Origin: Verrucomicrobiia bacterium
GTDB taxonomy: Bacteria; Verrucomicrobiota; Verrucomicrobiia; Limisphaerales; JADLHS01
NCBI GenBank assembly: GCA_026125285.1
Contig: JAHCLO010000020.1
Coordinates: forward strand, 1-64,000
Length of the DNA: 64,000 nucleotides
Reading direction: 5' to 3'
A model generated the notes under the pieces. It made no database searches. It saw only the letters and a list, made by a program, of their open reading frames with translations, and was not told where the DNA came from. Shown in pieces: positions 48,499 to 60,491 of this stretch. The translations under genes and the position numbers were made by a program. Position 1 is the first letter of the stretch, and the number at the start of each line of letters is the position of its first letter.

Positions 48499-48790
48499 AT
48501 CCGAGGCGCAGATTAGTTTCGTTGCCACCGGAGAGCAAAGGAATTCACCGTGGAATCCGCCTCGATGCGGTTAGGCCCAGGTCTCCCGGTCCAACTACTG
48601 GTCGCGCTGGTTTCCAACTGGCGGGTTTGGACCGGCCCCGGCGTTTCCGAGGGCTCGGGCGGTTTGCCAAATGGAACACGGCGCTATCGCGGATGGGGAA
48701 ATCTGTAAACCGCCGGGCAGACCGTGGCTTTGCCAAACACCAAAAACCAGTCTTTCCAACGATCACGCTCGGAGTAACTATGGCGTCGTC

Positions 48791-49468
48791 ATGCGCGTAT
48801 TGCTGGCTGAAGACGTGGCCAAAGTGGCCGAGCACATCCGCCAGGGTTTGGTGGCGGAGGGTTACGCCGTGGACGTGGCGACCGACGGCGACGAAGCGCT
48901 CTGGCTGGCGCAACTCCATCCCTACGACGTGCTGGTGCTGGACGTGATGATGCCCAGCAAGGACGGTTTCACGGTGGTGCGCCACCTTCGCCGCAAGCAA
49001 ATCACCACCCCAGTGCTGTTCCTGACCTCGCGGGCCGAGGTGGAAGATCGCGTGCGCGGACTGGACGCCGGCGGGGACGACTATCTTACCAAACCCTTCT
49101 CCATGGCCGAACTGCTGGCGCGTTTGCGAGCCTTGTTGCGCCGCCAGCGTCCCCAGGCGAACAACCTCCTGCGCGTCGCGGACCTGGAGCTCGATCTGGT
49201 GGCCCATCACGCCACCCGGCGCGGGGAACGCATCGAACTGACCCGGCGCGAATTTGCGTTGCTCGAATTCCTGATGAGCGCGTCGCCGCGCCCTGTGAGC
49301 AAGACCGCGATTGTCGAACACGTTTGGGATCAGCATTTCGATTCGCAGACCAACGTGGTGAACGTCTATATCAAACTGCTGCGCAACAAAATTGACCGGC
49401 CCGGCTGGCCGACCTTGCTGCACACGATTCGCGGCGTGGGGTTCGCGTTGCGCGAGGAGGGAACGTGA
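48791..49468 (+). CDS. OmpR-type response regulator
   Basis: DNA-binding response regulator of 225 residues from the ATG at 48791. The receiver is complete: E7-D8 in RVLLAEDVAKV, phospho-acceptor D51 in VLVLDVMMPSKDGF, T79 in LFLTSRAE and K101 in DYLTKPFSMAELLAR. The C-terminal winged helix shows LDLVAHHATRRGERIELTRR, LLEFLMSASPRPVSKTAIVE and TNVVNVYIKLLRNKID. Its TGA overlaps the kinase start as GTGA. An 8-base inverted repeat (GGCGGTTT 48658, AAACCGCC 48707) lies upstream. Confidence 0.96.
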   Translation: MRVLLAEDVAKVAEHIRQGLVAEGYAVDVATDGDEALWLAQLHPYDVLVLDVMMPSKDGFTVVRHLRRKQITTPVLFLTSRAEVEDRVRGLDAGGDDYLTKPFSMAELLARLRALLRRQRPQANNLLRVADLELDLVAHHATRRGERIELTRREFALLEFLMSASPRPVSKTAIVEHVWDQHFDSQTNVVNVYIKLLRNKIDRPGWPTLLHTIRGVGFALREEGT

Positions 49469-50559
49469 AATCGTTGCGCGCACGGTTGACCGTGTGGTTT
49501 GCCTCGGGCCTCGTGCTGGTGTTGGTGGTGTTCGTCGCGTTCACCTACCGGCTGTTGGACGAGGAATTGCATCGCAAATCCTGGCAGCGCAATTATCCCG
49601 AGCATCCCGACTGGAAACTTCACGGCAGCTATTCGGAAGCCGAAGTCCGGGATGTGATGGGCGAGTTGATGGAAACCTCGTTGACTTACGGGATTCCGCT
49701 GGCGTTGGCAGCGCTGCTGATGGGTTACTGGCTGGCGAGCAAATCCGTGAAGCCGATCGCGATGGTGAACCAGCAATTGCGGTCCATCCGCGCCCCGCAA
49801 CTCTCCCAACGCATCCAACTACCGGAGGGGGACCGCGAATTCCGCGACCTCGTCCGTCACATCAACGACCTGCTCGCGCGGTTGGAACGTTCGTTCAACG
49901 ACATGAGCGAATACGCGGCGAAGGTGGCGCACGAACTCCGTACCCCGCTGGCCATCCTCCGCCTCAAGGTGGAGCAGGCGGGCGGGCGAATTCCGCCCGA
50001 CATCAGCGAGGAGTTGCAGGCGGAGTTGCATCAATTGACCCACGTGGTGGACCAGTCACTCCTCATTGCCAAGGCCGAACAAGGCCGCCTGGTCCTGCAA
50101 CCGCAGAGGTTCGACCTCGCCCGGCTGGTGGCTGAGATGGCCGAAGACTTTGCATTGTTGGCGCGAGAGGAAGGACGCGCCATGAATCTCGTTCCCATCC
50201 CGCCCATCTTCGTGGTGGCCGACGCCAAATACATCCGGCAGATCGTGCATAGCTTCTTCACCAACGCCCTCAAACACGGGCGGGGTGAAATTCGCGTGAA
50301 ATTGCGAACGACCAACGCCGTGCATGTGCTGACGGTTGCCAACCGCCGGCATGCGCCCAACGCCACACGGGCGGAAACCCTGGGCCTCGGATTGCGGGTG
50401 GTGGACACACTCCTGAGCCTGGCGCCTGACATCAAGTGTCGGCGCCGAAACGGACGCCATTGCTACGCCGTGCAACTCTCCTTCCCCGCGGCGGAGGGCG
50501 TTGAAGACACCCAAGCCAGTGCGCTGGAAATCCCGAACGCACACGATCCGGGGATTTAG
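49465..50559 (+). CDS. sensor histidine kinase with atypical ATPase domain
   Basis: Membrane kinase of 364 residues, GTG start overlapping the regulator's stop. TM1 is about 9-29 and TM2 about 76-90, enclosing a periplasmic loop of only ~45 residues. HAMP-like and HisKA parts follow, with H156 in KVAHELRTPLAILRLKVEQ. The ATPase domain has a recognisable N-box (HSFFTNALKHG, N267). However, the G1 box that should read DxGxG is TVANRRHAPNATR (about 290-302), while GLGLRVV remains. ATP binding may therefore be weak or lost. Confidence 0.9.
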   Translation: MKSLRARLTVWFASGLVLVLVVFVAFTYRLLDEELHRKSWQRNYPEHPDWKLHGSYSEAEVRDVMGELMETSLTYGIPLALAALLMGYWLASKSVKPIAMVNQQLRSIRAPQLSQRIQLPEGDREFRDLVRHINDLLARLERSFNDMSEYAAKVAHELRTPLAILRLKVEQAGGRIPPDISEELQAELHQLTHVVDQSLLIAKAEQGRLVLQPQRFDLARLVAEMAEDFALLAREEGRAMNLVPIPPIFVVADAKYIRQIVHSFFTNALKHGRGEIRVKLRTTNAVHVLTVANRRHAPNATRAETLGLGLRVVDTLLSLAPDIKCRRRNGRHCYAVQLSFPAAEGVEDTQASALEIPNAHDPGI

Positions 50560-50696
50560 CTGCCACCGATCGCGGCTGGCCTCCGCCGTTGCTTTGCGTT
50601 GAATCGCAAGCTCCCGCCGCCGGTTTCTAAAAGTACTTTAACGTCCTGAGTCACACTCTTTTCATCTGCTTCTGCCACTCTCGCCCCCGGTGCCAG

Positions 50697-51413
50697 ATGG
50701 ATTCTACGTTGATGAATGAACCTAGGGGAATCTTGCCGCCGCGACTGCTGGTGGCGGAAACGGAACCGAAGGTCGCTGACTCTGTGCGCGCTGTCGTGGT
50801 CCTGGAGGGTTACGTGGTGGACATCGCGACGGAGGCGGCGGCGATCCTCCGCCTGGCAAAACTCAAACCGTACGCCGCGATCCTGGTGGACTCGCCCCTG
50901 CCCTCCACGGCGGGCTTCACGGTGGTGCGGCAACTGCGCCGCGCCGGAATCGCCACGCCGGTCTTGCTTCTGGCGGCCCGAGGCGGCGTGGAGGACCGGG
51001 TGCGAGGACTGGATGCGGGCGCGGACGATTGCCTCACCGGCCCCATTTCCAAACCGGAACTGCTGGCGCGGCTGCGGGCCCTGTTGCGTCGCCCGCCGCT
51101 GCGATCCGCTCATACCCTTCGCGTCGCCGATTTGGAACTGGACTTGATGCAGCACCACGCCCGGCGTGCGGGACGGCGAGTGGAACTGACCCGTTGCGAA
51201 TTTGCCCTCTTGGAACTGTTGATGAGCGCCTCACCGCGACCGGTGAGCAAAGCCGCGATCCTGGAACGCGTGTGGCGGCACCGGCTCGATTCGCAAACCA
51301 ACGTGGTCAATGTTTATATGCGGAGCTTGCGCCGCAAGCTGGGCGGCAAACATCTTCCTCCATTGCTCCACACGGTTCGCGGTTTTGGGTTCTGTTGCAG
51401 GGAATGGTTCTGA
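50697..51413 (+). CDS. OmpR-type regulator paralogue with degenerate receiver
   Basis: A 238-residue paralogue of the regulator two genes upstream, very similar along its whole length (DRVRGLDAGADD, MSASPRPVSKAAILERVW, SQTNVVNVYMRSLRRKL). The receiver keeps D65 in ILVDSPLPSTAG but has lost other switch residues: acidic pair E-D becomes E21-T22, the Thr becomes A93, and the Lys becomes G115 (CLTGPISKPELLAR). The winged helix is intact. It probably binds DNA without classical phosphorylation. It lies before the DUF3570-apbE operon, separated by 260 bases. Confidence 0.92.
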   Translation: MDSTLMNEPRGILPPRLLVAETEPKVADSVRAVVVLEGYVVDIATEAAAILRLAKLKPYAAILVDSPLPSTAGFTVVRQLRRAGIATPVLLLAARGGVEDRVRGLDAGADDCLTGPISKPELLARLRALLRRPPLRSAHTLRVADLELDLMQHHARRAGRRVELTRCEFALLELLMSASPRPVSKAAILERVWRHRLDSQTNVVNVYMRSLRRKLGGKHLPPLLHTVRGFGFCCREWF

Positions 51414-51673: not shown

Positions 51674-52882
51674 ATGCCGATGACTTTTATTCTATCCGGG
51701 AGGACATCCGCTCGCGGCCCTCGACTCAGGGCGTTCGTGCTTGCCGCATGGCTCGTGTGGTTTGTGTTGCCCGGGCGGACACGCGCCGAGAACCGCGCGG
51801 ACTATCGTTACGAAGATTACGCGGAAGACGCGGGACGCATCCACATCCAGACCCATGGCTTCTATTTCGCCAACGAACTGAAGCCGTGGCTGACGGTCAA
51901 GGGCAACTTCCTGCATGACGCCATTTCCGGCGCAACGCCGACGGGTGCGCCCCCGCTGCCCGGACAATCGGAGGTGGCCAAGGCGACGATTGACGACATT
52001 CGCCGGGCGGGATTCATTGAGCCGACTTTCAAGCTCGCTAATCATAGCCTCACGCCGCAGGCCGCCTACAGCGTGGAGAGCGATTACGAATCCATCGGCG
52101 TTTCGCTGAATCACGCAATCGAGTTGAACGAGAAGAACACCACGCTCACGTGGGGAGTTAGTCATGCGTTCGACCGGGTGTTACCCAACCTCGGCACGGC
52201 CATTACGAAAGCGCAGGACAAGAACAGCACGGACGTGCTGCTGGGGATCAGCCAGTTGCTGGATCAGCACACCATCGTGTCCGCGAACGTCACCTTGGGA
52301 TACTCGGAGGGATACCTCGCCGATCCCTACAAGCGGGTGCTCTTCGACGATTTTCCCTATTTTCCAGGACCAGACCCCAGTGAGCCCTTTCCGTACACGG
52401 TTTTTCCGGAGAACCGGCCCGATCAGAAGTTCCGGCAGGTGCTCTTCCTCTCGGCGCAGCACTACTTCGAACCGGTGAAAGGCGCTCTCGAAGCAACTTA
52501 CCGGTTCCACCACGACGACTTTGGCGTGATGGCCAACACGGTTTCGCTGCAATGGAATCAGAAGCTCGCCAAGCACGTCATTGTTTCTCCTTTGTTCCGC
52601 TTTCACACGCAGACCGCGGCGGATTTCTACGGGACACATTTCCCGGGCGACCCGACGGATCCGGATTCGTTCCCGACGCCCCGCCATTACTCAGCCGACT
52701 ACCGACTCTCGGCGTTGAACACCTTCACGTACGGCGTATCGGTCAGCGCGCACGTGCATGAGAACGTTTCGCTCGAGCTGGCTTACAAACGTTACGTAAT
52801 GAAGGGAACGGACGGCGTGACCTCCGCCGATCAATATCCTTCGGCGCATGTGATCACGGGAGGACTGACGATATGGTACTGA
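51674..52882 (+). CDS. DUF3570 outer-membrane protein with ApbE-type motif
   Basis: Probable outer-membrane beta-barrel of 402 residues, preceded by AAGGAG. The signal peptide is about residues 16-38 (FVLAAWLVWFVLPG). Amphipathic strands continue to a C-terminal aromatic end (VITGGLTIWY). The sequence follows DUF3570: YEDYAEDAGRIHIQTHGFYF, DAISGATPTGAPPLPGQSEV, and HALDRVLP-type segment seen as HAFDRVLPNLGTAI. Residues 82-88 are DAISGAT, matching the Dxx(S/T)GA(T/S) site that ApbE enzymes flavinylate; T88 would carry the FMN. First gene of the apbE-tlpA-DUF4266-dsbD operon. Confidence 0.88.
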   Translation: MPMTFILSGRTSARGPRLRAFVLAAWLVWFVLPGRTRAENRADYRYEDYAEDAGRIHIQTHGFYFANELKPWLTVKGNFLHDAISGATPTGAPPLPGQSEVAKATIDDIRRAGFIEPTFKLANHSLTPQAAYSVESDYESIGVSLNHAIELNEKNTTLTWGVSHAFDRVLPNLGTAITKAQDKNSTDVLLGISQLLDQHTIVSANVTLGYSEGYLADPYKRVLFDDFPYFPGPDPSEPFPYTVFPENRPDQKFRQVLFLSAQHYFEPVKGALEATYRFHHDDFGVMANTVSLQWNQKLAKHVIVSPLFRFHTQTAADFYGTHFPGDPTDPDSFPTPRHYSADYRLSALNTFTYGVSVSAHVHENVSLELAYKRYVMKGTDGVTSADQYPSAHVITGGLTIWY

Positions 52883-53862
52883 ACCAATACGCGGGAGTGC
52901 GTGATCGCGTGCGCCATTCGGCGGTGATCCGCGAAGAGAACGGTCTGACGGTGCTCACGTTCCACGCGATGGGGACGCGTTGCCGCGTGCTGTTCGTCGA
53001 ACCTTCGCGCGCGGTGGCCAACGCGTTTCTGGATGATTTGCTCAATTGGGTCGCGGCGTTCGAGGCCAGGTTTTCACGCTATCTTGAGGGCAGTCTCATC
53101 AGCCGCATCAACGCCGCCGCCGGCCAGCACTGGGTGGAGACGGATGACGACGCCGACCGAATGTTCGCCCTCTGCGCGGAAATGGTGTTCCTGACGCGAG
53201 GCGCATTTGATCCCACCGCACTGCCGCTCATCAAGCTCTGGAACTGGAAGCAACAACCGCCCGCGATCCCGTCGGCTGCCGCCATCGCCGCGGCGCGCGA
53301 ACTCGTCAGTTGGAACAAAGTCCAGCGCCGGCCGGGCGGAATGTTCCTGCCGCAGCCGGGCATGGCCATTGACCTCGGCGGCATCGGCAAGGAATGCGCC
53401 GTGGATTGCGCGGTCGCCATCGCGTTGCAGCATCGTGTTGACAATGTGCTTTTGGATTTCGGCCAGGACATCCGTGTTCACGGCAAACCGCCCGGACGCC
53501 CCGCCTGGCACGTGGGGCTGGAAAACCCGGCCAGTCCCGGTTCGTGTTGGGCAAGCGTGGCGGTGGCGGATCACGCGGTCGCCAGTTCGGGGGATTATCT
53601 CCGGCACTTCACGCATCAAGGACGGCGCTACGGCCATATCGTTGATCCGCGCACGGGTTACCCGGTGGAGAACGAATGTCTCTCGGTGAATGTCGTCGCG
53701 CCGAACTGCACCCATGCCGGGATTCTCTCCACCGCCGCCTTCATCCTGGGGCCGCAGGAGGGCTACCACCTGATCAACAGTTTTCCCGGCGCCTCGGGCG
53801 CATTGCTCACCCAACACGGCAACCGCATAACTCCTCGTTTCTATGAACACCTCGTACAATAA
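52873..53862 (+). CDS. apbE: FAD:protein FMN transferase (ApbE family)
   Basis: Transfers FMN from FAD to Thr or Ser of target proteins outside the cytoplasm in most systems. The 329 residues include FSRYLEGSLISRINAAAG, FDPTALPLIKLW, the binding loop MAIDLGGIGKECAVDCAVAI, VLLDFGQDIRVHG, AVASSGDY and HIVDPRTGYPVENECLSVNV with conserved His255, Asp258 and Thr261. No signal peptide is visible at the N-terminus (MVLNQYAGVRDRVRH), which is odd for this family. The start overlaps the DUF3570 gene by 10 bases. Confidence 0.94.
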   Translation: MVLNQYAGVRDRVRHSAVIREENGLTVLTFHAMGTRCRVLFVEPSRAVANAFLDDLLNWVAAFEARFSRYLEGSLISRINAAAGQHWVETDDDADRMFALCAEMVFLTRGAFDPTALPLIKLWNWKQQPPAIPSAAAIAAARELVSWNKVQRRPGGMFLPQPGMAIDLGGIGKECAVDCAVAIALQHRVDNVLLDFGQDIRVHGKPPGRPAWHVGLENPASPGSCWASVAVADHAVASSGDYLRHFTHQGRRYGHIVDPRTGYPVENECLSVNVVAPNCTHAGILSTAAFILGPQEGYHLINSFPGASGALLTQHGNRITPRFYEHLVQ

Positions 53863-54346
53863 AATCAAATTCGTCAGCGCCCTTGTGGCGCTCTTCACCG
53901 GCTTCAACCTCGCCACCGCCGGGCCGTTAAAGGAAGGCGACAAGTTTCCCGACCTGGCCGCCTACGGATTGGAAGGCAAGCTGCCAGACCTCAAGGGCAA
54001 GGTCGTGCTCATTGACTTCTTCGCGTCGTGGTGCGGCCCGTGCAAGGATTCGTTTCCGGCGATGGAGGAGTTGCACAAGAAATACGCCGACAAGGGACTC
54101 GTGGTCGTGGCTATCAATCTCGACAAAAAGCGAGCGGACATGGACGAGTTTCTGAAAAAATATCCGGCCAGCTTCGTGATCCTCCGCGATCCCGCTAACA
54201 AGCTGGTCGGCGAAGTGAAGATTCCCACCATGCCCAGTTCCTTCCTCCTGGATAAAGATGGCAAGGTCCGTTCCGCGCATCGCGGTTTCAAGGGCGAGGA
54301 GACGAAGAAGAAATATTCCGAGGAAATCGAGTCACTGCTCAAGTAA
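53843..54346 (+). CDS. secreted thioredoxin-like protein (TlpA/ResA type)
   Basis: Exported thiol-disulfide protein of 167 residues. The signal peptide is about 1-26 (FVSALVALFTGFNLATAG). The thioredoxin fold has the active site FFASWCGPCKDSFPAMEEL with C64 and C67, then VVVAINLDKKRADMDEFL, the cis-Pro in VKIPTMPSSFLLDKDGKV and RGFKGEETKKKYSEEIE. It would act in the periplasm on partners or haem proteins; here its neighbours suggest the DUF3570/DUF4266 module. It overlaps apbE by 20 bases. Confidence 0.94.
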   Translation: MNTSYNKIKFVSALVALFTGFNLATAGPLKEGDKFPDLAAYGLEGKLPDLKGKVVLIDFFASWCGPCKDSFPAMEELHKKYADKGLVVVAINLDKKRADMDEFLKKYPASFVILRDPANKLVGEVKIPTMPSSFLLDKDGKVRSAHRGFKGEETKKKYSEEIESLLK

Positions 54347-54364
54347 ACATCCACCCGCTCAACC

Positions 54365-54586
54365 ATGAAAAAACGGCCATTCCTCTGCCTCCTGCTCTTC
54401 GCTGCCGTCGGTCTGTCTTCCGGCTGCAAGCACGTCAGCCCCTGGGAACGCAGCGCGCTCGCCGATCCGGTGATGCGAGCCGATTACAACCCGGTCGGCA
54501 CTATGATGGCCGAGCACATGTACTTCTCGCGCGAAGCCGCCAGCGGTGGTAGCGGCGTGGGCGGCGGCGGCTGCGGCTGTAATTGA
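54365..54586 (+). CDS. DUF4266 small lipoprotein
   Basis: A 73-residue lipoprotein. The lipobox is LSSGC with C21 as lipidated residue, followed by KHVSPWERSALADPVM. MMAEHMYFSREAASGGSG, then a Gly-rich end with GGGGCGCN, gives two further cysteines. This is the DUF4266 pattern, which I know to occur beside DUF3570 and ApbE genes. The C-terminal cysteines could carry a disulfide or metal. Its SD and spacing fit the operon. Confidence 0.88.
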   Translation: MKKRPFLCLLLFAAVGLSSGCKHVSPWERSALADPVMRADYNPVGTMMAEHMYFSREAASGGSGVGGGGCGCN

Positions 54587-54604
54587 AATGAAAGGAGTTC
54601 CGCT

Positions 54605-56389
54605 ATGATTGTTTCCGCCTTAGCGCGGGTTTCTCAACTTGCTGGGTCGGGGATTTCCCAATGGGCGAACCGTTTGCCCTTGCCGGTCGCGTGGGTAGGG
54701 CGCGTCACTCCGTGCGCGCCATTCCAGACCTTGTCGGCCGACTGCGGCGCGCACGGAGTGACGCGCCCCACCAGGACACGAGGACTGGTTGTCGCGTTAC
54801 TCGTCAGGACCCTTGGGTTGTTGCTGGCGACCGCTTCGGTCAATGCCCAGGAACGCAGCCCCGTCACCATCACCCCGGAGGTTCGCGTTGCTCACGGCCA
54901 GCGTGAACTGGCCCTCAACTTTCACGTTCCCCCGGAGCACCATCTCTACGCTGACAGGTTGTCTGTGGAACTCGCCGGTCAACCAGCCGGATTGACGCTG
55001 CCCGAGCCGGTGACTGTGATGGACAAACACAGCGGCAAGGCGCGAGGAATGTATCAAAAGGATTTCACCGCCTCAGTTCTGCTGGCTTCAACGGACGGCG
55101 AAGTGGAGTTCACGGTTCACCTTCAAGGCTGCAATGACGCGGAATGTTATTTCCCCGAGGCGCGGCAATGGGTCGTCCGCCCTGACCAATCCATTGCGTC
55201 GCTGGATGAACCTCAATCAGGAACCGACGCGCCGCCGGGCACGGCTTCGCTTACTGCGGGATTCCAAGTCGCCCACCGCGCTTCGGGTTTCATGGACAAA
55301 GCGGCGTTTCTCTCTTTTCTCAACCAGAGCAATGAAGGCGGCGCCGCGGCCAACGGCTCCAGTTTTGCTGGAATGAGCGCGCTGATGACCGTTGGGCTGA
55401 TACTCCTCGGCGGCCTTGCCTTGAATCTCACTCCCTGCGTCCTGCCGATGATTCCCATCAACCTCGCCATCCTCGGCGCGGGCTCAAAAGGCGGCAACCG
55501 GCGGCGCGGTGTGGCCCTCGGCGGTGCGTACGGCTTGGGTATGGCCCTGGCCTATGGTGGACTGGGACTTCTCGTAGTGCTCACCGGCAGCAAATTCGGC
55601 ACGCTGAACTCCTCGCCGTGGTTCAACTTCGCGGTCGCCGCTGTGTTCGTGGTGCTGGGACTGGCCATGTTCGACAAATTCGCGATTGACCTCTCACGAT
55701 TCCAGCGGAGTAGCGGCGGTGGGCCCAAGACCGGCCACGCGGCATTCCTGGGCGCCATTGCCATGGGCTCATTGTCCGCGCTCCTCGCCGGAGCCTGCGT
55801 CGCCCCGGTGGTGATTTCGGTGTTGTTGCTGGCCGCGACGAGTTATCAACAGGGCAATGTACTTGGCTTGCTGTTCCCGTTCGTGCTCGGCGTGGGCATG
55901 GCCTTGCCGTGGCCGGTTGCCGCCGGAGGGCTCTCGTTTCTGCCGAAGCCCGGTGCGTGGATGACGCGGGTGAAACACGCGTTTGGCGTGGCCATCTTCG
56001 CCTTCGCCGCCTGGTATGGTTGGCTCGGTTGGAGTCTCACTCTCACCGGCGGCAGCCTGGCGGTGCGCGCACGCGAAGCGAATCACAATGTAGCGGAGTT
56101 GCGCGCCGCGCTTGCGGCCTCGCGCGAATCCGGCAAACCCGTGCTCGTGGATTTCTGGGCAAGCTGGTGCAAGAACTGTTCGGCCATGGAACACGCCACC
56201 TTGCGCGAGCCGTCCGTGCGCGACCAGCTCGAGGATTTCCACGTTGTCCGCTTCCAGGCGGAACGGCTTGATGATGCCGCGGTGAAACCTGTGCTGGACG
56301 AGTTCGGTGTCATGGGCCTGCCGACTTTCGTTGTGCTGCGCCCCGAGAAGCCCGCCACGGCGGCGACCGCCGCCAGTACGATTAAATAA
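54605..56389 (+). CDS. dsbD: thiol:disulfide interchange protein DsbD
   Basis: Transmembrane electron carrier from cytosolic thioredoxin to the periplasm, 594 residues. The ATG at 54605 has a strong AAAGGAG. Residues 31-57 come from a palindromic insert (GRVTPCAPFQTLSADCG). The signal-like helix (VVALLVRTLGLLLATASVNA) lies after it. The N-terminal domain has C176/C181 (CNDAEC), the membrane domain C278 (LNLTPCVLPMIPI) and C398 (LAGACVAPVVIS), and the C-terminal thioredoxin domain C522/C525 (FWASWCKNCSAME). All three thiol centres of DsbD are kept. Last gene of the operon. Confidence 0.94.
   Translation: MIVSALARVSQLAGSGISQWANRLPLPVAWVGRVTPCAPFQTLSADCGAHGVTRPTRTRGLVVALLVRTLGLLLATASVNAQERSPVTITPEVRVAHGQRELALNFHVPPEHHLYADRLSVELAGQPAGLTLPEPVTVMDKHSGKARGMYQKDFTASVLLASTDGEVEFTVHLQGCNDAECYFPEARQWVVRPDQSIASLDEPQSGTDAPPGTASLTAGFQVAHRASGFMDKAAFLSFLNQSNEGGAAANGSSFAGMSALMTVGLILLGGLALNLTPCVLPMIPINLAILGAGSKGGNRRRGVALGGAYGLGMALAYGGLGLLVVLTGSKFGTLNSSPWFNFAVAAVFVVLGLAMFDKFAIDLSRFQRSSGGGPKTGHAAFLGAIAMGSLSALLAGACVAPVVISVLLLAATSYQQGNVLGLLFPFVLGVGMALPWPVAAGGLSFLPKPGAWMTRVKHAFGVAIFAFAAWYGWLGWSLTLTGGSLAVRAREANHNVAELRAALAASRESGKPVLVDFWASWCKNCSAMEHATLREPSVRDQLEDFHVVRFQAERLDDAAVKPVLDEFGVMGLPTFVVLRPEKPATAATAASTIK
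54694..54772. repeat. long perfect inverted repeat inserted in the dsbD coding sequence
   Basis: Bases 54698-54720 and 54746-54768 are perfect 23-base reverse complements separated by 25 bases. With GGT (54694-54696) and ACC (54770-54772) beyond a single mismatch the arms reach 27. It is placed between the dsbD start and its signal helix, and is translated in frame. Confidence 0.93.
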
Positions 56390-56412: not shown

Positions 56413-59382
56413 ATGTATTCCCGCTTCATGTTTGCCCTTCGGATTCCGGCGCTCGCGTTGGCCGCCGTTCTGCAATGCCTCCCCATCGTTCGCGTGGCGT
56501 TGCCAGCCACGCAGACCGCGACGAATTTCGTTGCCATCATTTTCCGCTGGGGCGCGGTCGCCGCCGCGATGCTGGGTGGAGTTCATGCGGTGTCCGGCGC
56601 GTCCACCGTGATCACCACGCCCTTGAACCAGACCGTGACCAATGGCGTGCCGTTGGGCACCACTCAGATTCGGCTCATCACCGCGCCGGATCAGGCGCAT
56701 TACTGGCAGGCCACGGGGCTGCCGCCCGGACTCACCCTTTTTGGGACGAGCGGGACGACAAGTTGGAGCATCCGGGGTACGCCCACCGCCACCGGAACAT
56801 ACAACGTCGGACTGACGGCCAAGGACAAGATTGACAGCAAGGCGGATCGAACCGTCACCGCCACCATGATCATCAACGTGCTCCCCGGCAGCGGAGGGGG
56901 AGGGAACGCGCCGCCGACAGCGACCGCGCAAAGTGTGATAACCGCCGAGGATACCGCGAAAGCCATCACCCTGACCGGCACCGACCCGGACGGTGACGCC
57001 CTGACCTATTCGATCATGACGCAGCCGGCTCACGGAACGCTTTCGGGCACCGCTCCGAACGTGAGCTACCTCCCGGCGGCCAACTATTTTGGCCCGGACA
57101 GCTTTACTTTCCGCGTCCACGACGGCGCCACGAACTCCGCACCCGCCACAGTGACCATCACGGTAACGCCCGTGAATGACGCCCCGACAGCCAACGCCCA
57201 AAGTGTGACGACCGCCGAGGACACCGCGAAAGCAATCACCTTGACTGGCTCCGACCCGGACGGTGACGCCCTGACGTATTCGATCATAACGCCGCCAGCG
57301 CATGGAACACTTTCAGGAACCGCTCCGAACGTAAGCTACCTCCCGGCGACCAACTACGTTGGCCCGGACAGTTTCACCTTCCGCGTCCACGACGGTGCCA
57401 CGAACTCCGCGCCCGCCACGGTAACCATCACGGTATCACCCGTGAATGACGCCCCGACAGCGACTGCGCAAAGTGTGACAACCGCCGAGGACACTACAAA
57501 GACGATCACCTTGACCGGCACCGACCCGGACGGCGACGCCCTGACGTATTCGATCGTGACGCAGCCGGCACACGGAACGCTCTCGGGAACCGCTCCGAAT
57601 GTAAGCTACATCCCGGCGACCAATTACTTCGGATCGGACAGTTTCACCTTCCGCGTCAACGACGGATCGCTGAACTCAGCCGCCGCACTGGTTTCCATCA
57701 CGATCACTCCGGTGAACGATGCACCCCTGGCGAACCCGCAAACCGTCGGCACCCCGGAGGACACGCCCCGGGTCATCACGCTAACCGGTTCCGATCCTGA
57801 AGACAGTCCGCTCACTTACACCATCGTGACGCCGCCGGCGCACGGTTCCCTCAGCGGTTCCCCACCCAATGTAACTTACACTCCCGACGCGGCCTATTCA
57901 GGCGCCGACAGCTTCGCCTTCAAGGTCAACGACGGCAGTCTCGACAGCGCGATTGCGACGGTGACGATCAGCGTCAGTTTCGTGAACAGCGCCCCATTGG
58001 CCAACGCGCAAAGCGTGAGCACACCCGAGGACATCGCGAAAACGATCACCCTCACGGGCGCGGACGCCAATGGCGACCCGCTGACGTACACAATTCTCAC
58101 GCAGCCGACCAAGGGCTTCCTCTCCGGCAGTGCGCCGAACCTGACTTACACCCCGAGCGCGAACACCAACGGTGCCGACAGTTTCACCTTCAAGGTCAAC
58201 GATGGCACCCTCGATTCGACGCCCGCCACCGTTAGCATAACCATTGTGCCCGTGAACGATGCGCCGACCGCCAACGCGCAAAGCGTCACCACCGCCGAGG
58301 ATACGGCAATTGCCATCACGCTCAACGGCAGTGACGTGGATGGAGATGCGCTCACCTACACCATCGTCGAACTACCCGCGCACGGCGCCCTGACAGGTTC
58401 GCCGCCAACGGTGACTTACACCCCGGCGGCAGATTATCACGGTCCGGATAGTTTCACGTTCATCGCGGATGACGGGGCCGAGGGCAGCGCTCCGGCAACC
58501 GTCTCTATCACCGTCACGCCCGTCAACGATCCTCCGGTGGCCATGAACACAACCACGGCTACTGCCTCCGGCACTGTCCTCACCCTCCAGCCGCTGGCCG
58601 GCAGCACGGACCCTGACGGCGATGCTCTGACCATCGTCTCGGTGGACCCGACCAACGGCACGGCAGTCATCCAAAATGGCACCAGCATCCTGTTCACGCC
58701 TGCCCCGGCCTTTGCGGGCGACGCTTCCGTCTCGTACACCATCAGCGACGGTCAGGGCGGCAGCGCAACAGGCTTGATCAGCATCCTCGTCACTCCTGTT
58801 TCGACAAATAAATTCAGCATCATTGCGGCGTCGCCCATCTTGGATGCACAGACCGGACTGTATGCCCAACAGGTGAGGGTGACGAACACCGGTTCCACCA
58901 CCGTGCCCGCGGTCCGGCTCACCGTGCGTGACTTGCGTTCCGGGGTAATGCTCCAGAACGCTTCCGGCGACAACGCAGGATGGCCTTGCGTGCGATACGA
59001 TGCCTCGCTGAATCCAGGCGAAGGGGTGACCTTCGTGCTGGAATACTATGTGCCAGACCGCCTGCCGTTCAGCAGCACCTTGGAAGTGGAGGAGGTACTG
59101 CCATCGTCCCACAACACCAACCCCAGTGGCGCCACCGCCATAGACCGCAGCTTTCTGGACCGAAGCGACCCCGCCAATCCCCGCTTTACCATCGAGTTCC
59201 CCTCCATGCCGGGACGTTCATACACCATCATCTATACGGACGACCTCGTGAACTGGAGCGTGGCCACGCCAAGTATCACGGCCGCAGCCACAGTTACGCA
59301 ATGGCATGACGATGGCCCACCCAAGACGTCCAGCAAACCCGGCAGCGGGAGCCGGTTCTATCGCGTCTTGGCCGCACCCTGA
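56413..59382 (+). CDS. secreted tandem Ig/cadherin-like repeat protein
   Basis: A surface or secreted protein of 989 residues. Two hydrophobic stretches occur near the N-terminus (6-30 and 44-62); the first is probably the signal. A putative-Ig domain (about 65-160, WQATGLPPGLTLFGTSGTTS) is followed by six repeats of ~90 residues and a seventh diverged one, from about residue 164 to 800. The motif is EDTAKAITLTGSDPDGDALT, HGTLSGTAPNVSY, PDSFTFRVHDGATNSAPATV, as in VCBS/cadherin-like proteins. A C-terminal part ends GSGSRFYRVLAAP. Adhesion or matrix role is inferred. Confidence 0.88.
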   Translation: MYSRFMFALRIPALALAAVLQCLPIVRVALPATQTATNFVAIIFRWGAVAAAMLGGVHAVSGASTVITTPLNQTVTNGVPLGTTQIRLITAPDQAHYWQATGLPPGLTLFGTSGTTSWSIRGTPTATGTYNVGLTAKDKIDSKADRTVTATMIINVLPGSGGGGNAPPTATAQSVITAEDTAKAITLTGTDPDGDALTYSIMTQPAHGTLSGTAPNVSYLPAANYFGPDSFTFRVHDGATNSAPATVTITVTPVNDAPTANAQSVTTAEDTAKAITLTGSDPDGDALTYSIITPPAHGTLSGTAPNVSYLPATNYVGPDSFTFRVHDGATNSAPATVTITVSPVNDAPTATAQSVTTAEDTTKTITLTGTDPDGDALTYSIVTQPAHGTLSGTAPNVSYIPATNYFGSDSFTFRVNDGSLNSAAALVSITITPVNDAPLANPQTVGTPEDTPRVITLTGSDPEDSPLTYTIVTPPAHGSLSGSPPNVTYTPDAAYSGADSFAFKVNDGSLDSAIATVTISVSFVNSAPLANAQSVSTPEDIAKTITLTGADANGDPLTYTILTQPTKGFLSGSAPNLTYTPSANTNGADSFTFKVNDGTLDSTPATVSITIVPVNDAPTANAQSVTTAEDTAIAITLNGSDVDGDALTYTIVELPAHGALTGSPPTVTYTPAADYHGPDSFTFIADDGAEGSAPATVSITVTPVNDPPVAMNTTTATASGTVLTLQPLAGSTDPDGDALTIVSVDPTNGTAVIQNGTSILFTPAPAFAGDASVSYTISDGQGGSATGLISILVTPVSTNKFSIIAASPILDAQTGLYAQQVRVTNTGSTTVPAVRLTVRDLRSGVMLQNASGDNAGWPCVRYDASLNPGEGVTFVLEYYVPDRLPFSSTLEVEEVLPSSHNTNPSGATAIDRSFLDRSDPANPRFTIEFPSMPGRSYTIIYTDDLVNWSVATPSITAAATVTQWHDDGPPKTSSKPGSGSRFYRVLAAP
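56904..58522 (+). repeat. six tandem ~270-base coding repeats
   Basis: Units begin near 56904, 57177, 57450, 57714, 57981 and 58252, each 264-273 bases. The first three are close to identical over long stretches (for example GACCCGGACGGTGACGCC recurs), the later three more diverged, pointing to recent expansion at the 5' side. Confidence 0.85.
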
Positions 59383-59390
59383 CACTGCTT

Positions 59391-60491
59391 ATGATCAGAA
59401 CTCATTTCAGAATTACCGCCCGCTCGGAGCGTGGAGGGCTAGGATCGCGTGTGACCGCGACGAAACATTTGCGGACGAGGGGCGCCGCGCTTTTCTCCGC
59501 CGCTGTAGTGGGTTTGCTGATTCCCGGCCTCGCTCTGGCAGCCGATGAACCCGCCCAAAAACACCGGCTGAGTTTCGCTCCGCGCGTGGGATTCAATGTT
59601 GCAGCCAAATTTGAGGGAGTCGGAGCGGTCGGCTTGTACCGCACGACGCCCAACGGCGATGGTTACAATTACGACGATGGGTATATCCTGACTGACATCA
59701 GTGGCAATCAAGGCGGTCAGACCTGGTATTGGGGTTACGATGACAGCGCGGCGCAGGTTTCCGGAGACACCATCCGGTTGAGCCGCAGCACGGTGGCGGC
59801 GAGCCCTGGGGCCGTTACGGAAGACGCAGACCCGTCCCTGGGCGGTGAACTGGTTGGTTACCTTGGGCTCGGAACCAAAGGCCGGTTGCGCTACGGTCTG
59901 GAAGCGGCCGCCGGGTACCAGCACCTCCAGATTCAGGCCGCGCACCGTTTGCTGGTCACGCTGGCGACCGATTCCGACGTTTATCCTTTCGTGCCAGGCA
60001 CCACCCCGCCGACCGTCACTCCGTCCACGCCCTATCAAGGGAGCTACCAAGGACCGGGATTCCTGATCGCCGACATGCCATCCGACAGTTTTTCAAGCCT
60101 GACGCCCGATGTCGCTCTCTCCAGTCGGAACGAACTGAGCGCCGACCTGTGGAGCTTCCGGGTAGGCCCCGGTTTCGAAGTCCCCCTGGGACGCCGCGTC
60201 TGTCTGGGTTTTGGCTTCGGAATCGAGGCCGGCTGGCTCAACGCCACCCTCTCGTGGAACGAATCCGCCGGGAATTATGGCTCGGCTGGCAAAGTAACGG
60301 ACGCAACCGCGCTGGTTGGTTTCTACGCCACCGGCAGTGTCGCTTGGCAATTCACCGAACGCTGGAGTCTCGCGGCGGGCATTCAATATCACAATCTCGG
60401 AACATACGAACATTCCTATCATGGCCGCACTGTAACGCTGGACTTGAACAATGCCCTTTCAGTCACCGCCGGGATGGCGTGGCTTTTCTGA
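59391..60491 (+). CDS. outer-membrane beta-barrel protein
   Basis: A 366-residue exported protein. The signal peptide ends at ALA (FSAAVVGLLIPGLALA), after an unusually long basic N-terminus. Alternating strands such as RLSFAPRVGFNVAAKF, RLRYGLEAAAGYQHLQIQ and SLAAGIQYHNLGTYEHSY, and a C-terminal Phe (ALSVTAGMAWLF) that fits BAM recognition, mark a small barrel. Repeated GFGIEAGW-type glycine-aromatic motifs are typical. It starts 8 bases after the tandem-Ig gene, so both may be exported together. No ligand is suggested. Confidence 0.85.
   Translation: MIRTHFRITARSERGGLGSRVTATKHLRTRGAALFSAAVVGLLIPGLALAADEPAQKHRLSFAPRVGFNVAAKFEGVGAVGLYRTTPNGDGYNYDDGYILTDISGNQGGQTWYWGYDDSAAQVSGDTIRLSRSTVAASPGAVTEDADPSLGGELVGYLGLGTKGRLRYGLEAAAGYQHLQIQAAHRLLVTLATDSDVYPFVPGTTPPTVTPSTPYQGSYQGPGFLIADMPSDSFSSLTPDVALSSRNELSADLWSFRVGPGFEVPLGRRVCLGFGFGIEAGWLNATLSWNESAGNYGSAGKVTDATALVGFYATGSVAWQFTERWSLAAGIQYHNLGTYEHSYHGRTVTLDLNNALSVTAGMAWLF

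Follow-up and report, generated by a model that had tools for sequence, protein, structure and literature searches.

Five genes on the forward strand occupy positions 51674-56389 of the window (the whole 64,000-nucleotide stretch of DNA analysed here), encoding a DUF3570 protein, ApbE, a TlpA/ResA-type thioredoxin, a DUF4266 protein and DsbD. Open reading frames and Pfam profiles bore out the initial annotation, which had described five co-directional genes with overlaps or short gaps (Table 1). DUF3570 and apbE overlap by 10 nt and apbE and the TlpA gene by 20 nt, while 18 nt separate TlpA from DUF4266 and again DUF4266 from dsbD; PF12094, PF02424, PF14086 and PF02683 are thereby clustered on one strand, in genes that overlap or lie no more than 18 nt apart. 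The run extends past 56389, a sixth gene beginning 23 nt 3' of dsbD. The window's genome has one DUF3570 gene, one DUF4266 gene and three ApbE proteins.

Table 1. Genes and motifs of the operon, in window coordinates.
Feature	Positions	Strand	Remarks
DUF3570	51674..52882	+	402 aa; Pfam PF12094 2.8e-65; predicted 16-strand outer-membrane barrel (AlphaFold)
DAISGAT, ApbE-type motif, DUF3570 residues 82-88	51917..51937	+	probable FMN site Thr88
apbE, FAD:protein FMN transferase	52873..53862	+	PF02424 6.4e-72; without recognisable signal peptide
TlpA/ResA-like secreted thioredoxin, WCGPC	53843..54346	+	Pfam Redoxin 2.1e-22
DUF4266 lipoprotein, C-terminal GGGGCGCN	54365..54586	+	PF14086 7.8e-21
dsbD, transmembrane thiol electron carrier	54605..56389	+	DsbD_TM 6.9e-40, DsbD_N, C-terminal thioredoxin domain
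Sixth gene: N-terminal domain NT6, then Ig/cadherin-type repeats	56413..59382	+	3' of dsbD
HAVSGAS, ApbE-like motif, sixth-protein residues 58-64	56584..56604	+	candidate acceptor Ser64

Upstream of the operon, at 48671-51413, a response regulator, a histidine kinase and a second response regulator all run in one direction and are a possible regulator of it; the sixth gene is followed, at 59391-60491, by a predicted outer-membrane barrel-like protein with a weak OMP_b-brl match. Relatives found by protein search belong to the Verrucomicrobia. A scan of viral contigs with ApbE gave no relative, and a plasmid tblastn search with DUF3570 returned only distant matches in Vibrio and Hymenobacter. 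In other genomes, the five families were located in fetched neighbourhoods with profiles built for this analysis. Clustering of these neighbourhoods across loci gave no convincing conserved neighbour beyond the six genes; a second large neighbour cluster was rejected as a partner, being composed of antisense ORFs of the operon. TlpA and dsbD are missing from some of the clusters in other genomes, which we count against the model developed below.

The probable DUF3570 flavin site and its predicted barrel

Flavinylation of DUF3570 by ApbE, and the type of gene cluster, were already published in 2021 and are not new here. In Chlorobium luteolum, the cognate ApbE attaches flavin to DUF3570 at two [ST]GA[ST] sites, as seen by UV gel, and a double Ser-to-Ala substitution abolishes the modification (Meheust et al. 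2021, PMC8238504). The initial annotation, which had proposed a flavinylated DUF3570 in a thiol/flavin chain with DsbD, thioredoxin and DUF4266, was right in outline and had been anticipated by that study. It had also placed DAISGAT at residues 82-88 of the window DUF3570, where it is indeed found, as the sole [ST]GA[ST] of the protein.

Conservation of the motif was judged first on loci that an HMM for DUF3570 picked out in whole genomes, 289 from the phylum and 57 from relatives, because a contig scan had selected on the motif itself. Residue 88 is Thr or Ser in 106 of 106 alignment rows, a count whose independence is overstated, with many rows coming from that scan. Since G86, P89 and G91 are likewise invariant across the family alignment, DAISGAT is not a chance occurrence. 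The site in the main lineage reads [DN]-x-[IVL]-[SATV]-G-[AS]-[TS]-P, and the acceptor appears to be kept in essentially all intact members of the window lineage. At one locus (L045 5982-7390, genome G121) DUF3570 is interrupted by one or more stop codons and spread over three open frames, probably a pseudogene or a sequencing error.

The initial annotation had proposed to check whether the motif is conserved only beside apbE. DUF3570 clusters that lack apbE nevertheless keep it, and all five genomes concerned encode apbE elsewhere, either in a second DUF3570 cluster (G344, G316 and G337) or as a separate gene of the same subfamily (G305, locus L242; G284, locus L259). Motif conservation therefore tracks ApbE in the genome rather than strict adjacency.

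The motif region also varies between lineages. Three distant DUF3570 proteins (L056-L058) show the two-site pattern of PMC8238504, with SGAS coming after DYVSSAS. Some lineages have N for D at the first motif position and an insert of 80-117 residues, several with a second xGAT readable in it. At L031-L033, L043, L048, L050, L051, L054 and L055 the insert is Pro/Ser-rich, comprises 81-117 residues after the motif and in several contains a KAGAT-like second site; these loci have no sixth gene. At L088 7001-8644, the same place as L164, DUF3570 and DUF4266 are retained, apbE is lost and a TlpA-like fragment, MPVSFLLKHDGRV, lies between them, an apparent deletion remnant; the sixth gene of this locus has HAVSAAS in place of SGAS.

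AlphaFold2, run with 109 sequences, predicted DUF3570 as a 16-stranded barrel with a mean pLDDT of 92.6. Its structural neighbours are the barrels of BamA, PelB, CymA, BcsC and OmpG, with Z scores of up to 23. As modelled, DUF3570 has the even number of strands, the short periplasmic turns and the C-terminal strand ending at the periplasm of outer-membrane barrels, along with a signal peptide, and the model supports the earlier proposal that the chain reaches the outer membrane. Short turns alternate with long loops, and by barrel rules we took the short turns as periplasmic. With this orientation, strand 3 (residues 73-89) is predicted to carry DAISGAT at its extracellular end, and Thr88 would face the lumen, the polar and more conserved side. 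This facing is read from strand parity, not from distances, because the model coordinates are unreleased. The initial annotation had regarded placement within a buried barrel strand as grounds for rejecting flavinylation; the motif does fall in a strand, but this is no refutation because Thr88 is modelled at the strand's extracellular end and, by parity, on its lumen side. Positions conserved at 90% or more are concentrated on the extracellular side, where they make up 36 of 182 positions in loops and strand ends, as against 8 of 98 in the periplasmic counterparts.

We also modelled DUF3570 and DUF4266 as one AlphaFold chain, obtained by reading through the single TGA between the adjacent genes of locus L099. 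The two parts did not dock, and the DUF4266 part had a pLDDT of 25-46. Entry of the DUF4266 CxC tail into the barrel was left as an unsupported idea on this account, and the absence of docking counts against our model.

The operon ApbE and the possible compartment of flavin attachment

By hydropathy alone, none of 107 DUF3570-linked ApbEs has an N-terminal hydrophobic segment at the cut-off, and the window ApbE is likewise without one; it shows no recognisable N-terminal (lipoprotein) signal peptide of the kind that periplasmic lipoprotein ApbEs have. Of 29 other ApbEs from the window's own and related genomes, 19 reach the cut-off, and the distant L056-L058 ApbEs apparently possess such a segment. 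Position 52873 as the start agrees with the common MVL beginning, which overlaps the stop of DUF3570.

From its sequence, the operon ApbE appears to stay in the cytosol, and the flavin may therefore be attached before export. Cytosolic ApbEs are known to serve cytosolic targets, such as the Klebsiella fumarate reductase (PMC12052999), and a cytosolic-looking enzyme with an exported substrate counts against our model. In the published E. coli co-expression, signal-peptide-truncated proteins were used and DUF3570 was found mainly in the pellet (PMC8238504). As truncated DUF3570 was flavinylated while mostly in the pellet, we infer that ApbE may accept a precursor that is still unfolded.

A sixth gene with an ApbE-like motif

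The sixth gene was found by an unbiased survey of conserved neighbours, in which it lay directly after DUF4266 or dsbD on the same strand. It is apparently undescribed before. The N-terminal ~65 residues of its product, which we call NT6, comprise two hydrophobic stretches, separated by a conserved Q..P, and end in HAVSGAS; cadherin/Ig-type repeats follow. No Pfam or NCBIfam model matches NT6, and 73 members gave no Pfam match to FMN_bind, NqrB/RnfD, DUF2271 or DUF3570. A PDB profile search returned a single match, to an FMN-binding protein, which is not significant (E = 0.78).

Across the family the motif reads [HDNQ]xx[SAVT]GA[TS]. The first position of 100 members is H in 59, D in 29, N in 7 and Q in 5, the window protein having H as against the D of Dxx(S/T)GA(T/S); the G is kept in 89, the A in 96 and the T/S acceptor in all 100, and 88 show the strict form xG[AS][ST]. 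Motif position 4 of NT6 tends to agree with that of DUF3570, V going with V and A with A, a suggestive correspondence confounded by phylogeny. The initial annotation had stated that no other recognisable ApbE substrate is encoded nearby, which the HAVSGAS of the sixth protein makes probably wrong.

The gene follows directly in 29 of 48 clusters, with gaps of 27-188 nt. Clusters without it adjoining are mostly of long-insert or distant DUF3570 types, or lie at contig ends; it accompanies short DUF3570 in 30 of 37 cases and long-insert DUF3570 in 1 of 12. Among related genomes, NT6 occurs in 16 of 17 with DUF3570 and in none of 40 without it (Fisher p = 3e-13, as for all NT6 co-occurrence p-values inflated by genome relatedness). 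Across the phylum, with the best 20 candidates per genome scored, it was found in 15 of 30 genomes with DUF3570, and the 259 without DUF3570 gave one weak, frame-broken match. In genome G305 (L242 5361-7670), a signal-peptide-less ApbE of the same subfamily is directly followed by a member of the sixth-gene family, with no DUF3570, TlpA or DUF4266 nearby. NT6 paralogues elsewhere in the same genomes mostly keep the motif.

The main rival explanation is that NT6 is an unusual or modified signal peptide, a long one with an extended n-region, a hydrophobic core and cleavage between SGA and T, which carries no flavin and exports a protein that is cargo or substrate of the system. Large surface proteins with long signal peptides are known. 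The small residues at -3 and -1 after a hydrophobic stretch suit signal peptidase I, and the 12 of 100 members outside the strict form would mostly still be cleavable (SAAS, SAAT). Signal peptidase, however, needs neither Gly at -2 (89%), nor Thr/Ser at +1 (100%), nor H/D/N/Q at -6 (100%), and the putative cleavage sites of TlpA and DUF3570 at the same loci have G at -2 in only 5% and S/T at +1 in only 8%. The genomic co-occurrence of NT6 with DUF3570 and ApbE also speaks against this explanation, as does the apbE-NT6 pair that exists without DUF3570. We regard a signal peptide as a serious contender with somewhat less than an even chance.

We propose that the sixth protein is a dedicated partner of the DUF3570 system and probably a second ApbE substrate. 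A fuller proposal, which we advance tentatively and at just under even odds, is that it represents a new class of ApbE substrate, in which large envelope proteins with Ig/cadherin repeats would carry a covalent flavin by way of a short, hydrophobic domain at their N-terminus that closes with [HDNQ]xx[SAV]GA[TS]. Such a protein would be the obligate partner of single-site DUF3570, both would be modified before export by the signal-peptide-less ApbE, and together they would form a two-protein, cytochrome-free flavin path across the envelope.

Thiol carriers, proposed electron path and known systems

The C-terminus of DUF4266 is GCGCN in 121 of 126 matched ORFs and GCGCY/F in three distant ones, so that CGCN/Y/F is found in 124 of 126; the nearly invariant CxC tail is GGRGVGGGGCGCN in most relatives. 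At 54540-54583 in the window, as at the other loci, this terminus is preceded by a near-invariant glycine-rich stretch, FSREAxxGGRGVGGGG, far stricter than the remaining protein. The predicted 5' coding part of dsbD contains a REP-like inverted repeat at 54698-54768, formed by GGGCGCGTCACTCCGTGCGCGCC and its complement with starts 48 nt apart; its 23-mer occurs 104 times in the genome and not once in a reversed control. The repeat may be an in-frame insertion, in which case the true dsbD start could be later.

We propose that the DUF3570 precursor receives FMN at Thr88, taken from FAD by ApbE, as a proven homologue of DUF3570 suggests. The protein would then be assembled in the outer membrane as a 16-strand barrel; its flavin is predicted close to the extracellular mouth, on the lumen side, amid a cluster of invariant charged residues. 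TlpA, which DsbD would supply with electrons across the inner membrane, would maintain the DUF4266 lipoprotein with its C-terminal Cys-x-Cys in the reduced state; DUF4266 would hand the electrons to the DUF3570 flavin, from which they would pass to an acceptor at the cell surface. The sixth protein would bear one flavin site, where other lineages hold extra sites within DUF3570.

An electron path of this kind need not have an external acceptor. The system could instead provide protein repair or metal loading in the periplasm or outer membrane with reductant, the flavin acting as a thiol/disulfide relay. DsbD and TlpA/ResA proteins normally serve thiol chemistry, and the CxC tail of DUF4266 could bind metal, but the conserved residues of the barrel cluster at its extracellular and not its periplasmic side, and the survey of conserved neighbours found no metal or repair enzyme conserved near the operon; we consider this reading unlikely, if well short of negligible. 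It is improbable that the DUF3570 motif is structural in the window lineage and ApbE serves another protein: one site rather than two, replacement of D82 by N in 5 and of S85 by A/T/V in 29 of 106 rows, and an ApbE without signal peptide could all be read in this way, yet the acceptor is invariant and co-conserved with apbE, and a homologue with the same gene neighbours is flavinylated (PMC8238504).

We favour, with a probability of about 0.68, the reading of the window operon as the published DsbD/DUF3570 flavinylation system in a form with six genes. What purpose electron transfer by DUF3570 serves is acknowledged to be an open question (PMC8238504). The barrel model, the co-occurring sixth gene and the cytosolic-seeming ApbE make it directly testable, in the position of the flavin, the existence of a second carrier and the compartment of modification.

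The published set comprises 285 DsbD gene clusters, in which ApbE, DUF3570 (227), a DUF4266 protein with CxC at its C-terminus (221) and a thioredoxin (183) are typical (PMC8238504). The window shares with it the five families, DUF3570 as the predicted ApbE substrate and the CxC-tailed DUF4266. Two DUF3570 motifs were reported as conserved, whereas the window protein has one, a difference that we count against our model; the two motifs are, however, a reported property of that set and not a definition of the system. The published thioredoxin is PF13899, while that of the window is a secreted WCGPC protein matching Redoxin, AhpC-TSA and Thioredoxin_8. The window further differs in its ApbE without signal peptide and in a sixth gene with its own motif, which is absent from that paper's description.

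NqrB/RnfD and NqrC/RnfG, the subunits of Nqr and Rnf that ApbE modifies, share with the operon an acceptor Thr/Ser in an [ST]GA[TS]-type motif. In the sixth protein this motif stands at the close of a hydrophobic segment, as it would in a carrier anchored to the membrane. Pfam and PDB profile searches found no sequence relation between them and the sixth protein, whose Ig/cadherin repeats make for a very unlike architecture. Porin-cytochrome conduits of the MtrAB type offer an analogy only, in the proposed redox centre at an outer-membrane barrel; in the window system the flavin would sit on the barrel itself, with thiol donors and no haem proteins.
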